Virus record (IMG/VR): IMGVR_UViG_3300043446_004737
Span: 1 to 21,793 of that record
Length of the DNA: 21,793 nt
Source: a virus
Strand: one strand, 5' to 3'
In this document: one piece after another, positions 1,005 to 8,589 of the stretch
Position numbering within the stretch: the first letter of the stretch is position 1
How the letters are laid out: every line of letters begins with the position of its first letter
Program-made: the position numbers and the translations under genes
The notes under the pieces: generated by a model
What the model was told of the DNA's origin: nothing
Seen by the model: only the letters and a program-made list of their open reading frames with translations
Database searches by the model: none

Positions 1005-1586
1005 ATGCCTTTCCTTTCCAAGCAAGCCTCTGCTGCTGTTACGTCCAACAGCACCGGCGGCGGCTACCTCAGCCTCAGCAAGCTCCCCGACGGCGGCTCC
1101 GTCCGCTTCGCGCTGCTGACCGACGAACCCCTGGAGTTCTACGAGTGCTGGGGCCAAGCCAACGGCGCCTCCAAGCCCTTCCGCTTCGACTACGAGCCCA
1201 CCATCGAGGACGTAACGACTGAGATGGGCGAGTTCGAGCCCCGCGAAGGCCGCGGCGGCCCTGGCACCGCCGACGTAAAGTTCGCCATCGCCTGCCCGGT
1301 TTACAACTACGAGTCGGGCAAAGTCCAAGTCCTGCAGATCACCCAGAAGTCCATCCTCAAGGAAATCGACCAGATTTCCCAAATGGAGGACTACGAGAAC
1401 CTGCTGGAGTGGGACTTCACCATCAGCAAAAAAGGCAGCGGCCTGCTCACCGAGTACACCGTCCGCCCCGTGCCCCGCAAAAAGGGCAGCCAAGAGCACG
1501 TCGATGCCGCTTGGCTCGAAGCCAAGGCCGAAGGCTTTGACATCAGCCGACTTCTCAGTGGTGGCAACCCTTTTAAGGCTGCCTGA
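1005..1586 (+). CDS. Putative phage single-stranded DNA-binding protein
   Basis: This 193-residue protein probably coats single-stranded DNA during replication and recombination. The central segment (KFAIACPVYNYESGKVQVLQ at 92-111, then ITQKSI and EWDFTISKKGSGLLTEYTV at 135-153) matches the recurring pattern of phage gp32/OB-fold SSBs, where a strand carrying the ITQK motif precedes a D-x-x-I-x-x-x-G segment. Family recognition is by pattern only. The ATG at 1005 gives a natural N-terminus (MPFLSKQ); the frame is open farther upstream, but through the terminator-like hairpin. The Shine-Dalgarno sequence is weak (CGGAAAA). Its position between primase and nuclease genes supports a DNA-metabolism role, and it ends just before a strong terminator. 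Confidence 0.6.
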   Translation: MPFLSKQASAAVTSNSTGGGYLSLSKLPDGGSVRFALLTDEPLEFYECWGQANGASKPFRFDYEPTIEDVTTEMGEFEPREGRGGPGTADVKFAIACPVYNYESGKVQVLQITQKSILKEIDQISQMEDYENLLEWDFTISKKGSGLLTEYTVRPVPRKKGSQEHVDAAWLEAKAEGFDISRLLSGGNPFKAA

Positions 1587-1642: not shown

Positions 1643-1675
1643 ACTGGTATTATCAAATTGGGAAAGAATAACTTC

Positions 1676-2530
1676 ATGGCCTCCAACACCCAAGACACGC
1701 TGGCAGGACTGCGTAAGTGGAGGCTGGAGCAAGACAACAGCGGCCCCTTTCGGGTCTATCGGGACATCAAAGGTAATGTATACCATAGTGTTACACACAT
1801 CCTGAAGGAAACAAGCGACAAAACCGGGCTGGAACGTTGGGAAGCCCGCCTGGGACCAGTGGAGGCAAGCTGTCAGCGCAACGTTGCCGCCACCCGAGGC
1901 AACATGGCCCACAGCCAAGCGGAGTATCTCCTCAAAACCTCCCAACAGCTGGCACGCTCCACTGCAAACAAGCGCAACGCCATCCGCTGGGACGATCAAG
2001 GGTTGGCACGCATCCCGGTCCCCATCACCCAGTGGGCACTCAAGCGGGTGAGACCCAACGTTCCCCGAGTTGGCTGGAGCGCATCCGGCTACGCCCGCAG
2101 CTTGTCTGACTGGATCGCCGAGAACGTCACCGAAATTTTCGCCAGCGAATTTTCCATTCACCACCCGGCAGGCTTCGCTGGAACCTGCGACGCCCTGATT
2201 GGCATGAAGAATAACGAGCTGGTACTAGCCGACTGGAAAACCAGCGTGGGCCGCAAAACTCAAAAAGACGAAGACGGCCTGGAGCGCCTCCCGTCCGGCC
2301 ACTCATACATCGACCAGTGCGGCGCCTACAGCCTGGGACTCAAGCATCTCACCGGCCTCCAACCCACTGGCGCAGCTATCGTGCTAGCACGCCGTTGCGG
2401 CAATCCAAACATTCACCACATGACCCAGGCTGAGCTGGAGCAGGCAGAAAAGTCATTCATGGCTCGGGTGGAACAGTATTTCGCCGCGTTGGTTGACAAT
2501 CAGGTTGACAATGCAGCCCTGGCAGGTTGA
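1676..2530 (+). CDS. RecB/Cas4-like PD-(D/E)XK exonuclease
   Basis: This 284-residue protein is a likely DNA exonuclease for phage recombination or end processing. The nuclease core is readable: RGNMAHSQAEYL (H79), GFAGTCDALIG (D172), ELVLADWKTS (D186, K188 of the D-xK motif) and YIDQCGAYSLGL (Q214, Y218, the QxxxY motif typical of RecB-like enzymes). A TTG 18 nt upstream (1658) is in frame, but the ATG at 1676 has GGGAAAG at a good distance. The last residues (VDNQVDN) are encoded by direct GGTTGACAA repeats that continue across the stop codon, so the coding end overlaps a repeat region. Pairing with an SSB suggests an exonuclease/annealing recombination module, but no annealase gene is seen here. 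Confidence 0.75.
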   Translation: MASNTQDTLAGLRKWRLEQDNSGPFRVYRDIKGNVYHSVTHILKETSDKTGLERWEARLGPVEASCQRNVAATRGNMAHSQAEYLLKTSQQLARSTANKRNAIRWDDQGLARIPVPITQWALKRVRPNVPRVGWSASGYARSLSDWIAENVTEIFASEFSIHHPAGFAGTCDALIGMKNNELVLADWKTSVGRKTQKDEDGLERLPSGHSYIDQCGAYSLGLKHLTGLQPTGAAIVLARRCGNPNIHHMTQAELEQAEKSFMARVEQYFAALVDNQVDNAALAG

Positions 2531-2537: not shown

Positions 2538-2593
2538 GCCATTCAAGGTTGCCTGGAAACCCATTCATGACTGGGACTGAAAAGCCATTCATG
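2538..2593 (+). repeat. GCCATTCAT repeat cluster A
   Basis: GCCATTCAAG (2538-2547), CCCATTCATG (2560-2569) and GCCATTCATG (2584-2593) are copies of the unit found seven times at 5687-5787. A further near-copy, GTCATTCATG, lies at 2452-2461 inside the nuclease gene. Confidence 0.8.
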
Positions 2594-2612: not shown

Positions 2613-2735
2613 ATGAGTCTCACTGCTGAGGCTGTGCTGCTGGCACCATTGGCTGGGGTCCTGCTGGGGCTGGCGTGGGGCCTGTTGCTGGGGCGTCTTA
2701 GGGCGATTCTCGTGAGTCTCATCCTGAGATCCTGA
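2613..2735 (+). CDS. Possible small membrane peptide (40 aa)
   Basis: ATG at 2613 opens 40 codons of strongly hydrophobic, glycine- and leucine-rich sequence (LLAPLAGVLLGLAWGLLLGR at residues 9-28, then an RLRAILVSLILRS tail), enough for one transmembrane helix with a positively charged flank. No Shine-Dalgarno sequence precedes it, and it ends convergently with the leftward operon, next to that operon's terminator. It may be a phage small membrane protein or a chance open frame in GC-rich DNA. No family is recognised. Confidence 0.3.
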   Translation: MSLTAEAVLLAPLAGVLLGLAWGLLLGRLRAILVSLILRS

Positions 2736-2769: not shown

Positions 2770-2931
2770 TCAGTCTGCCGCCGGCGGGGCGAACTTTAGG
2801 CGCCACCACAAGGGCCTGTGCTGGTGTTCTTCCATCCATTGCGTCCGTGTCTGCGGCTGGTGCGGCAGCAGGCACCGCAAGCGCAGCTTGCCGGTGTGAT
2901 CGTTGGCCTGTAGCTCGCTGGGGCTGATCAT
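2770..2931 (-). CDS. Hypothetical small basic protein (53 aa)
   Basis: This is the third gene of a leftward operon. Its ATG (2931-2929) overlaps the TGA of the preceding gene in an ATGA junction, which suggests translational coupling. It is arginine-, lysine- and tryptophan-bearing (KLRLRCLLPHQPQTRTQWME, then PLWWRLKFAPP), so it is basic and possibly nucleic-acid binding, but no family is recognised. A GC-rich terminator follows within 3 bp. Being short, it rests mainly on the junction and the terminator. Confidence 0.5.
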   Translation of the reverse strand: MISPSELQANDHTGKLRLRCLLPHQPQTRTQWMEEHQHRPLWWRLKFAPPAAD

Positions 2932-3350
2932 GGTTTGGCTGGTGTGCGGGGTTTGCTGATGCCGGCATCACTGCGCCGCTTGCGGCTGGCGCCTTTGCTG
3001 GAGCGGGTCCGGTTTGCTGGGGCCTTGGCTGGCTGATCGATGCGCGGAAAAATACCCGTAGCCTGTGGAAAAAGCTCTGGGGGAATGTCGGCGCCGCCGT
3101 TGCAACGCTGGCACGCCCGCCAGTAGGGCACCAGTTCCCGCCAGAGCTGGAGCGGGCCTTCCTTGCCGTGGGCGGCCTGCAGGGCCAGTAGGTCGGCCCA
3201 ATCCGAAACTGCCAGGCTGGAGCGTTCAACAGCCCACCGCAGATCCCGGAGCTGGCGCTTCTCCAGCCGCAGCTGCTCGCGCTCCATCTCCCGGGCATCA
3301 AGGGCCAGCTGTTTCCGTTCCCGGCTGGTGTTCCATTCTCCGCCGCTCAT
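2928..3350 (-). CDS. Hypothetical coiled-coil protein with basic tail (140 aa)
   Basis: This is the second gene of the leftward operon. Residues ~8-45 form a charged helix (RERKQLALDAREMEREQLRL and on) likely to be a coiled coil. A CxxC pair follows (WRACQRCNGG, ~77-86), and the last ~35 residues are basic and low in complexity (RTRSSKGASRKRRS). Its ATG overlaps the upstream stop in an ATGA junction, and its own stop overlaps the next ATG the same way. The basic tail suggests DNA or RNA binding, but the function is unknown. A longer open frame across the same DNA (2543-3301) was dismissed because it lacks these junctions. Confidence 0.6.
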   Translation of the reverse strand: MSGGEWNTSRERKQLALDAREMEREQLRLEKRQLRDLRWAVERSSLAVSDWADLLALQAAHGKEGPLQLWRELVPYWRACQRCNGGADIPPELFPQATGIFPRIDQPAKAPANRTRSSKGASRKRRSDAGISKPRTPAKP

Positions 3351-3574
3351 GGTTGGGGCGCCTCCACCGCTTCGAGGGTGAACACCGGGAGACCCTTAGG
3401 GTCGTTGACTGGTGCTGGGGCCATCGTGATCAGGCCGCGGGCGTGCAGGGATTCAGCGATCCGCTGATCACGCTGAGGCATGGCCACAAAGTGCGGGCCG
3501 GGATTGTGCCGCAGAAAATTCAGCCAGTTGCGCTGCAGTGGTCCTAGCGGGCGGTTTCCATAGTCGGGTGACAT
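3347..3574 (-). CDS. Small winged-helix/HTH-like protein (75 aa)
   Basis: This first gene of the leftward operon starts at the ATG at 3574, which has a perfect AGGAGG 9 nt upstream; the frame is open farther upstream without such a signal. The sequence LQRNWLNFLRHNPGPHFV, then DQRIAESLHARGLITM and a strand-like GLPVFTLEAV, resembles a compact winged-helix domain in which a short turn precedes a recognition-type helix. It may be a regulator acting on the adjacent divergent control region. That role is inferred from shape and position, not from a recognised family. Confidence 0.62.
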   Translation of the reverse strand: MSPDYGNRPLGPLQRNWLNFLRHNPGPHFVAMPQRDQRIAESLHARGLITMAPAPVNDPKGLPVFTLEAVEAPQP

Positions 3575-3609: not shown

Positions 3610-3640
3610 CTGTAACAGTAGCACCGGGCGCAAGCTTGCG
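3610..3640. promoter_or_regulatory. Operator-like palindromes in divergent intergenic region
   Basis: Two palindromes lie between the leftward operon and the rightward acidic gene: CTGTAACAG (3610-3618, CTGT-N-ACAG) and CGCAAGCTTGCG (3629-3640, perfect 12-mer). The 11-mer CTGTAACAGTA recurs exactly at 5936-5946. The second palindrome overlaps the likely -35 of the rightward gene. Confidence 0.45.
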
Positions 3641-5686: not shown

Positions 5687-5787
5687 GCCATTCATGCCTG
5701 GAGCGCCATTCATGGATTGCCATTCATCGCGTGAATGCCATTCATGGATTGCCATTCATTGCCGCGGCCATTCATAGGCCATTCATG
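5687..5787 (+). repeat. GCCATTCAT repeat cluster B (seven copies)
   Basis: GCCATTCAT begins at 5687, 5705, 5719, 5737, 5751, 5767 and 5778, all in the same orientation, with spacings of 18, 14, 18, 14, 16 and 11 bp. Copies followed by GG form the palindrome CCAT-TC-ATGG. The fourth copy is also preceded by GAATG, making GAATG-C-CATTC. Spacing is too irregular and units too short for a CRISPR array; it looks more like iterons or binding sites. Confidence 0.9.
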
Positions 5788-5803
5788 CCTGACGCACGAG
5801 GCT

Positions 5804-5892
5804 AGTACAGCTGCACTAGGACACAGGTGTACTATAGGTCTAATGTACTACAGTTCTGATGTACTACTCTCGCAGGCTAGTACGGGTGCACT
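5804..5892. promoter_or_regulatory. Cluster of four LexA-box-like sites
   Basis: Against the cyanobacterial LexA consensus RGTACNNNDGTWCB (recalled from literature), AGTACAGCTGCACT (5804-5817), TGTACTACAGTTCT (5844-5857) and AGTACGGGTGCACT (5879-5892) each have one mismatch, and TGTACTATAGGTCT (5828-5841) has two. The first and last are flanked by CTAG, giving larger imperfect palindromes. The rest of this 317-bp gene-free stretch (5685-6001) holds repeat cluster B before it and the CTGTAACAGTA site at 5936 after it. I see no gene in it. The binding protein could be host LexA or a phage repressor. Confidence 0.45.
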
Positions 5893-5935
5893 AGCCTCCG
5901 GATCCTAGCCTGCCGCAGCCATAAGCTATTTTAAT

Positions 5936-5946
5936 CTGTAACAGTA
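5936..5946. promoter_or_regulatory. CTGTAACAGTA operator-like site
   Basis: This is an exact 11-bp match to 3610-3620, and the reverse complement of its last 9 bp recurs at 6502-6510. All three sites are intergenic and lie upstream of early-region genes. It contains the palindrome CTGT-N-ACAG. Confidence 0.4.
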
Positions 5947-6001
5947 TTGCCAACGGTGCCGGATCCGTCCTAGGAAGGGCAGGCCCTGATAGCCACCACC
6001 C

Positions 6002-6457
6002 ATGGCAAGGAAGATTGAAACCGCAATGATTCAAGTTCTGCGGAATCTTGATGTTAATCGCTCCGGCGTTATCTTCTCCAGAGATAACACTACGATCGAA
6101 GTTGAGCATCACGGAACATACCTGACACTAGGGTATGAAATGATCGTGAACGTTAAACTACACGGTCACACAATCTGCCGGTATCATCGCTCCCGAGAAC
6201 TAGTTACATTCTCGGATTGTGGCTGGCGCACTGCTACAACCAAAAGTAGACTTAATGCACTTCTAAACTACTTTTCGGATTACATTAACGGCGGATGGTC
6301 CCGGTATGGAATTTATCAGGCAAAACATGTTTGGTATCTCCAGGAATCTAGTTTCCGATACATGGGGCCCGATCGCGAGTCTCATCCGTTTGTGCCCCTC
6401 AAGCCGGTTGAATGGCCTGGGGAACTGACCGTATCGGTCAGCCGCGGCTGCCCATAG
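6002..6457 (+). CDS. Conserved phage hypothetical protein (151 aa)
   Basis: The protein has a strand-rich middle (EVEHHGTYLTLGYEM, then VNVKLHGHTICRYHRSREL) followed by TFSDCGWRTATTKSRLNALL. The segment GWRT-x-TTKSRLN is a signature seen in many small phage proteins of unknown function, usually in early or accessory regions. No catalytic motif is recognised. The coding DNA is visibly richer in A and T than the neighbouring genes, which suggests recent acquisition. There is no Shine-Dalgarno sequence before ATG 6002. Near its 3' end CTGACCG-TAT-CGGTCAG (6425-6441) forms a perfect 7-bp hairpin within the coding region. Confidence 0.65.
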   Translation: MARKIETAMIQVLRNLDVNRSGVIFSRDNTTIEVEHHGTYLTLGYEMIVNVKLHGHTICRYHRSRELVTFSDCGWRTATTKSRLNALLNYFSDYINGGWSRYGIYQAKHVWYLQESSFRYMGPDRESHPFVPLKPVEWPGELTVSVSRGCP

Positions 6458-7338: not shown

Positions 7339-8589
7339 ATGGCCGACACGGCTGGAACCCTCTCCCTCCGCTATGCCCAGGGCCAAGTCTTCTCCAGCCG
7401 CAAACGCTTCAGAGTATTGGTAGCCGGCCGCCGCTTCGGCAAAAGCTACCTGTCATGTATCGAGTTGCTGCGTGGGGCGATCGAAAGGCCGGGCGAAACA
7501 TTCTTCTATGCGGCCCCTACATACCGGATGGCAAAAGACATTGCCTGGAAGGTAATGAAAAAGCTGGTCCCAAAAGCCTGGATCAAGTCCAAAAACGAGA
7601 CCGACCTGAAGATCGAGCTGGTGAACGGCTCGACGATCGAACTGAAGGGCACTGAAAACGCCATGGCCCTCCGAGGCCGCAGCCTGGCTGGCGTGGTGCT
7701 CGACGAAGCCGCGTTCATGTCCAGCGACGTCTGGTTCGAAGTCATCCGTCCCGCCCTCGCCGACAAACAAGGCTGGGCATTGTTCATCTCCACCCCCGAC
7801 GGCACCGCCAGCTGGTTCTACGACCTCTGGTGCTACTGCGACCAAGACGACCCGGACTGGCAGCGGTGGCAGTTCACCACAATCGACGGCGATAACGTCC
7901 CCCCGGAAGAAATCGAGGCTGCCCGCGCCCAACTCGACGCCCGCACCTTCCGCCAAGAATTTGAGGCCAGCTTCGAAAATCTCAGCGGTCTCGTCGCCGT
8001 CTCCTTCTCGGACGAAAACATCGACGGTGTGGTGCAAGACCTCCCCGTCCTACCCCTGCTGCTGGGCGTGGACTTCAACGTCGATCCCATGTCCGCCATC
8101 TGCGCCGTCAAAAAAGGCGACGTGCTCTGGGTCTTCGACGAAATTATCATGACCGGCGGCGCCACCACCTGGGACCTCTGCGAAGAAATCCAATCCCGCT
8201 ACGGCGTGGAGCGCCGCATCATCGCCTGCCCCGACCCCACCGGCGGCGCCCGCAAAACATCGGGCGTTGGCGCCACCGACCACAACATCCTCCGCAAGAG
8301 CGGATTTACCGTATCCAGCCCCCGAAATCCCTGGAAAATCCGCGACAAAATCACCTGCGTCAACACCGCACTGTTGGATGCCTCTGGAACCCGCCGCCTC
8401 TTCATCCACCCCCGCTGCAAAGAACTCATCAAATCCCTCCGCACGTTGACTTATGCCCCTGGAACTGGCCTACCCAACAAGAATCTCGGCGTAGACCACG
8501 CATTTGACGCCTTGGGCTACCTCTGCCTGCAAACTTTCAACCTCGCCAAGCCAGAGAACCTCGGAAAGACCTCCTATCGTGTGTGGTAA
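7339..8589 (+). CDS. terL: Terminase large subunit
   Basis: This is the packaging motor that pumps phage DNA into proheads and cuts the concatemer. It has 416 residues, a normal length. The ATPase domain shows Walker A AGRRFGKS (29-36), Walker B VVLDEA (119-124) and the coupling motif FISTPDG (149-155). The RNase H-like nuclease domain shows GVDFNVDP (D245), CPDPTGG (D299) and VDHAFDALGYL (D386, D390), giving the expected acidic cluster. All key residues are present, so it should be active. The ATG at 7339 lacks a clear Shine-Dalgarno sequence. It is followed closely by structural genes. Confidence 0.95.
   Translation: MADTAGTLSLRYAQGQVFSSRKRFRVLVAGRRFGKSYLSCIELLRGAIERPGETFFYAAPTYRMAKDIAWKVMKKLVPKAWIKSKNETDLKIELVNGSTIELKGTENAMALRGRSLAGVVLDEAAFMSSDVWFEVIRPALADKQGWALFISTPDGTASWFYDLWCYCDQDDPDWQRWQFTTIDGDNVPPEEIEAARAQLDARTFRQEFEASFENLSGLVAVSFSDENIDGVVQDLPVLPLLLGVDFNVDPMSAICAVKKGDVLWVFDEIIMTGGATTWDLCEEIQSRYGVERRIIACPDPTGGARKTSGVGATDHNILRKSGFTVSSPRNPWKIRDKITCVNTALLDASGTRRLFIHPRCKELIKSLRTLTYAPGTGLPNKNLGVDHAFDALGYLCLQTFNLAKPENLGKTSYRVW

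Follow-up and report, generated by a model that had tools for sequence, protein, structure and literature searches.

A conserved, strand-locked nonamer array beside the exonuclease gene of a phage group: a candidate replication-initiation or priming element

An asymmetric 9-bp motif, GCCATTCAT, is iterated on one strand in non-coding gaps of a 21,793-bp virus record (the window, meaning the whole stretch of DNA analysed) and of its relatives, and the element that it forms is real, conserved and strand-locked. The function tentatively preferred for it is that of a strand-specific replication-initiation or priming element belonging to a module of ssDNA-binding protein (ssb), exonuclease (exo) and PrimPol. 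The window is a phage contig that has many relatives in IMG/VR, but no isolate phage comes near it. A cyanobacterial host is suggested by the genes that it carries (ssb, PD-(D/E)XK exonuclease, Kyano_Gp96, terL) and by weak matches to Synechococcus phages. The features of the window are collected in Table 1, in which the start of ssb is set at an internal ATG of an ORF that opens at 876.

Table 1. Genes and repeats of the window that are discussed in the text
Feature	Position	Strand	Evidence
ssDNA-binding protein (ssb)	1005..1586	+	PHROG 1192/1607, E about 1e-6 to 5e-7
PD-(D/E)XK exonuclease (exo)	1658..2530	+	PF12705 E 4.5e-9, PHROG 298 E 4e-25
Near-copy GTCATTCAT, one mismatch, within exo 3' coding region	2452..2460	+	
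Array A: three close copies (GCCATTCAA, CCCATTCAT, GCCATTCAT), begins 8 bp past exo stop	2538..2592	+	
Small predicted membrane ORF, 40 aa, 3' of array A	2613..2735	+	Read by eye
Small-terminase (TerS) candidate, HTH plus long helix	5244..5684	+	Position and architecture only
Array B: seven exact GCCATTCAT, begins 3 bp past TerS-candidate stop codon	5687..5786	+	
Second repeat family, GTACTA/TAGTAC units, about 16-bp period, directly 3' of array B	5802..5896	+	
TAATCTGTAACAGTATTG block between GTACTA array and next gene; recurrent	5932..5949	+	Sequence
Kyano_Gp96 family gene, 3' of array B	6002..6457	+	PF23790 E 1.2e-14
Terminase large subunit (terL), anchor for finding relatives	7339..8589	+	PF03237, PHROG 2

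The exact copies of array B start at 5687, 5705, 5719, 5737, 5751, 5767 and 5778 (start-to-start spacings of 18, 14, 18, 14, 16 and 11), all on the plus strand, in agreement with a first-pass annotation that had counted seven copies in a single orientation in 5687-5787. The three additional close copies at 2538-2593 and the near-copy at 2452 that it listed were also located, all on the plus strand; array A comprises an exact GCCATTCAT at 2584 and one-mismatch copies at 2538 and 2560, and in many relatives the 3' region of exo contains an exact copy. The minus strand of the window contains no exact GCCATTCAT. Matches with one mismatch number 15 in the window versus a shuffle mean of 4.5 and a largest value of 10, and seven copies of one 9-mer in 101 bp occurred in none of 200 dinucleotide shuffles, in which the count was 2 in 183, 3 in 13, 4 in 3 and 6 in 1. 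Chance does not account for the clusters, and a coding repeat was ruled out because some of the spacings are not divisible by 3.

The consensus of 569 distinct sites from relatives, a set seeded on CATTCA in which the core is fixed by construction and the flanks alone are informative, is AAAnGCCATTCAT(G/A). This consensus is asymmetric, and a palindromic site was rejected; the extension to CCAT-TC-ATGG that had been ascribed to the unit is present in three copies of the window only and is not conserved across the 569 sites. Spacing is irregular (4-60 bp between sites) and shows no helical phasing (R at most 0.18 for periods of 9-13 over 512 spacings), and an asymmetric motif without phasing fits a site that is read on one strand. 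The idea that the clusters are iterons of an origin is thus upheld as to same-orientation direct repeats in a non-coding region and not as to regular, helically phased spacing, and may still be correct; partition sites, named beside it in the first-pass annotation, are an unsupported proposal. Runs of the tetranucleotide TTCA inside the arrays of L252, L263, L265 and L299 suggest expansion by slippage.

Relatives were gathered by a terL search (80 loci, 87-99% amino-acid identity) and an exo search (80 loci), neither of which used the motif; together with a number of loci retrieved through the motif, they supplied 112 distinct exo-downstream stretches. Just downstream of exo, 94 of the 112 carry at least two CCATTCA, so that the repeat, far from being absent from relatives with the same flanking genes, is linked to the locus in the large majority of them, and nearly all relatives have an array downstream of exo. 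In these stretches CCATTCA has 409 copies on the exo/terL strand versus 2 on the opposite strand, and in 175 oriented loci CATTCAT has 799 copies on the exo strand versus 5, counts that are not independent, as the sequences are related and some contigs enter under several loci. Depletion of the motif on the opposite strand (ATGAATG, 4 seen and 29 expected) was given no weight, since these are related sequences in which many other words show the same degree of depletion. In main-family records of 42-46 kb, the motif is found almost exclusively between exo and terL.

Arrays also occur in distant lineages with terL about 25% identical, and ssb and/or exo homologues are found among these. Lineages picked by the exact motif give a biased view of its constancy, and those found by terL, exo or primase an unbiased one; two contigs found by primase homology without the motif, L516 and L519, both have arrays. 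A scan for three copies of the motif returned 81 contigs versus 7 for a scrambled control, several of the 81 (e.g. L041, L255, L288) resembling coding or plain tandem repeats. In one distant contig, L273, a homologue of the acidic ORF of the window (1462-2136 of L273, about 76% identity) adjoins a terL only about 27% identical, which suggests gene exchange.

According to the preferred reading, a replication factor would read the asymmetric 9-bp site iterated in non-coding gaps beside the ssb-exo module, always on the exo-to-terL strand, and the array would mark the position and strand at which synthesis starts or is primed. This reading is supported by the location of the array directly 3' of exo, which itself follows ssb, in most relatives; by the ssb and/or exo homologues of the distant array-bearing lineages; by the one-sidedness of the counts above; and by the PrimPol-helicase (PriCT_2, AAA_25) of complete relatives and the family A polymerase encoded by G001. 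PriCT_2 PrimPol-helicase was present in all five main-family records tested, and PrimPol homologues in distant array phages (L268, L107, L267, L254, L261) likewise count in its favour. Against it, a DUF3987 protein that is not alignable to the main-family PrimPol by BLASTP (G404, G405, L519) or a DnaB-type helicase (G419, G420) is encoded in some array-bearing contigs, and some genomes have two arrays. Array-bearing phages therefore have no one PrimPol family in common (a PriCT_2 protein in the main family and some distant phages, DUF3987 or DnaB in others), and one PrimPol cannot read the motif throughout. In many complete relatives the GC-skew extreme is found 1-4 kb past the array, but it does not discriminate because the late genes begin at the same place.

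Two contigs, L254 and L274, separate the orientation of the array from that of the neighbouring genes. In both, the array is located between two leftward genes, conserved between the contigs with 80% and 57% identity, and still has the exo-to-terL orientation (exo was located in L254, not in L274). The orientation follows the axis of the genome and not local transcription, which further supports the replication reading and favours action of the element as DNA rather than as mRNA; an antisense transcript would be possible. Two rivals are weakened by the same contigs. One is that the repeats are operator-like and bind an asymmetric regulator, much as the stoperators of cluster A mycobacteriophages do (PMC3029335). 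This would suit arrays that precede small ORFs and a second repeat family after array B, but in L254 and L274 the sites run against the flanking genes and the sites are clustered in one interval, whereas stoperators are genome-wide and transcription-oriented, and the explanation is improbable. A role in the exo-to-terL transcript, for example as a decoy or leader, would agree with repeats that in most relatives share the sense strand of the gene before them and with hairpins between repeats, but is hard to reconcile with arrays between leftward genes, with the lack of an accessibility signal in folding and with the lack of an Rfam match in the four sequences scanned, and we consider it very improbable.

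The hairpins are imperfect, have compensatory stem changes, and are formed among the array A repeats in part of the family, where they also speak for the replication reading; folding gives no sign of repeats being kept unpaired or single-stranded, which speaks against it. Hairpins of the form stem-TC-stem-loop-stem-TC-stem number 69 in 114 exo-downstream regions versus 0.2 in mononucleotide shuffles, by a search that required complementarity and counted overlapping matches. In a sequence-anchored pairing test, 128 of 160 cells were paired, compared with 91 on average and at most 106 after shuffling, the shuffle preserving column make-up and not relatedness. Their internal loop is a constant TC/TC (e.g. 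L307, L317), GA/GA on the other strand, and some overlap the 3' coding end of exo. No such hairpin was seen in array A of the window itself.

Between exo and the following genes, other small elements recur. The small predicted membrane ORF of the window had no match in a family search, and comparable small ORFs follow array A in relatives when read by eye; in L307, L323 and L368, the start codon of the small ORF appears to be the ATG of the final repeat. Elements similar to GAGTCTCATGAGTCTCA recur near the small ORF in exo-downstream regions of relatives and at 2613-2625 of the window, with a variant in L519. An ORF inserted after exo in L302, L304, L371, L313 and L336 resembles an HNH homing endonuclease by eye. 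Elsewhere in the window, TGTAACAGTA is found at 3611-3620, upstream of the leftward operon, and at 5937-5946, after array B, and is possibly an operator or promoter element.

The position of array B raises the possibility of a packaging (pac) element, at which terminase would gather and from which headful packaging would start in the direction of the repeat strand. In the window and some of its relatives, array B sits right beside the TerS candidate; in G403, G404, G405 and L273, contigs of distant lineages found through the motif itself, an HTH TerS-like gene ends 7-19 bp before the array, and G403-G405 have further copies after exo; and in these four, in the window and in relatives with a TerS-adjacent array, it is upstream of terL. 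Yet the array directly follows TerS in only 9 of 114 relatives scored, and the identity of TerS is that of a candidate, with no significant match in fold and PHROG searches. By pattern, the TerS candidates of relatives have at least three HTH types, which differ in the N-terminal HTH region and resemble one another in the C-terminal part. Across these types the exo-side array stays the same and is about equally frequent (52/58, 14/16 and 8/10), which is evidence against TerS as the reader; the motif is independent of the candidate TerS HTH type and does not change with the TerS DNA-binding domain as a pac site would be expected to. We consider a pac function unlikely.

The same counts limit the statement that the clusters flank a block made up of the leftward operon, acidic pair and small-terminase candidate, which holds for the window and not as a general rule, since most relatives carry the exo-side array alone and the post-TerS array is in a minority. 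Where array B is present, it is commonly separated from the next gene by a GTACTA/TAGTAC array, a similar set of repeats being found behind it in many relatives, and by a TAATCTGTAACAGTATTG-like block, and the next gene varies between relatives. This arrangement would suit recombination junctions, at which common direct repeats let phages exchange the variable genes that separate exo from terL. Exchange without inversion requires the same orientation, the nucleotide homology between window and relatives repeatedly stops at 2487 and 5674, beside arrays A and B, and exchange would explain a common motif in phages with differing primases and TerS. However, genes also end at 2487 and 5674, and breakpoints would be expected there anyway, the units are short and their spacers diverged, and most relatives have one array only. 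The proposal that the clusters are substrates for exchange of the block thus keeps the homology ends in its favour and may hold, although the analysis makes it rather improbable.

Within the replication reading, the reader of the array would, at a guess, belong to the replication machinery, for instance the phage PrimPol-helicase or a factor common to array phages. No single phage protein is demonstrated to track the motif, its commonest companions being the ssb and exo homologues. The small proteins encoded at 2770-3574, suggested earlier as binding partners, are unlikely readers because many relatives retain the array although these genes are different or were not detected in them. It is conceivable, if doubtful, that one nonamer is a genome landmark for several phage lineages that are otherwise unrelated and whose primases and terminases differ, and hence that the reader is shared, possibly host-encoded, and the array an undescribed type of phage origin or polarity signal.

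The repeat is not common throughout cyanobacterial chromosomes. Of 386 cyanobacterial genomes, 2 had arrays, in each case a short tandem repeat, and the motif has 6-24 copies per strand in five genomes of 2.6-3.1 Mb that may not be close to the real host, with 0-4 copies of the reversed motif, the sole control, in the same five. A BLAST of array B against isolate phages gave no match, a search in which such short repeats may be filtered, and no CATTCA clusters occur in S-2L, HTVC111P or the fetched part of S-CBS4. Rfam 15 gave no match above the gathering score in the window, L307, L317 or L339. No description of the motif or repeat family was found in the open-licence literature, and we know of no described family of such arrays.

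The arrays constitute a conserved, testable cis-acting site in a large phage group known almost only from metagenomes. If they are an origin or a packaging signal, they would reveal the place and the direction of DNA replication or packaging in these phages, and their use by phages with unrelated primases would raise the question of a common reader. Compared with known systems, they resemble the iterons of plasmid and phage origins, which are likewise direct repeats of one orientation in a non-coding gap close to replication genes, but differ in their irregular, unphased spacing. The pac site of SPP1 likewise has directional direct repeats near the small-terminase gene, whereas the arrays mostly follow exo rather than being at terS and are indifferent to the TerS HTH type. 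Stoperators are also asymmetric, intergenic sites of a single orientation (PMC3029335), but are genome-wide rather than in one interval, and the orientation of the arrays is untied to local transcription. Chi, too, is a short, asymmetric, oriented motif and the array motif has a recombination nuclease gene beside it, but the motif is few in the cyanobacterial genomes checked, which may not be those of hosts. An analogy, and no more, is offered to the preferred reading by phage NrS-1, whose PrimPol recognises the specific template motif TTTGGTTA (PMC8718748); the NrS-1 text considered here describes no such arrays. Although TTTGGTTA is unlike the array motif, and the latter occurs also in phages with another primase-helicase, NrS-1 encodes its PrimPol with an associated helicase and SSB, and the arrays may resemble its motif in being a short strand-specific sequence proposed as a start of replication.
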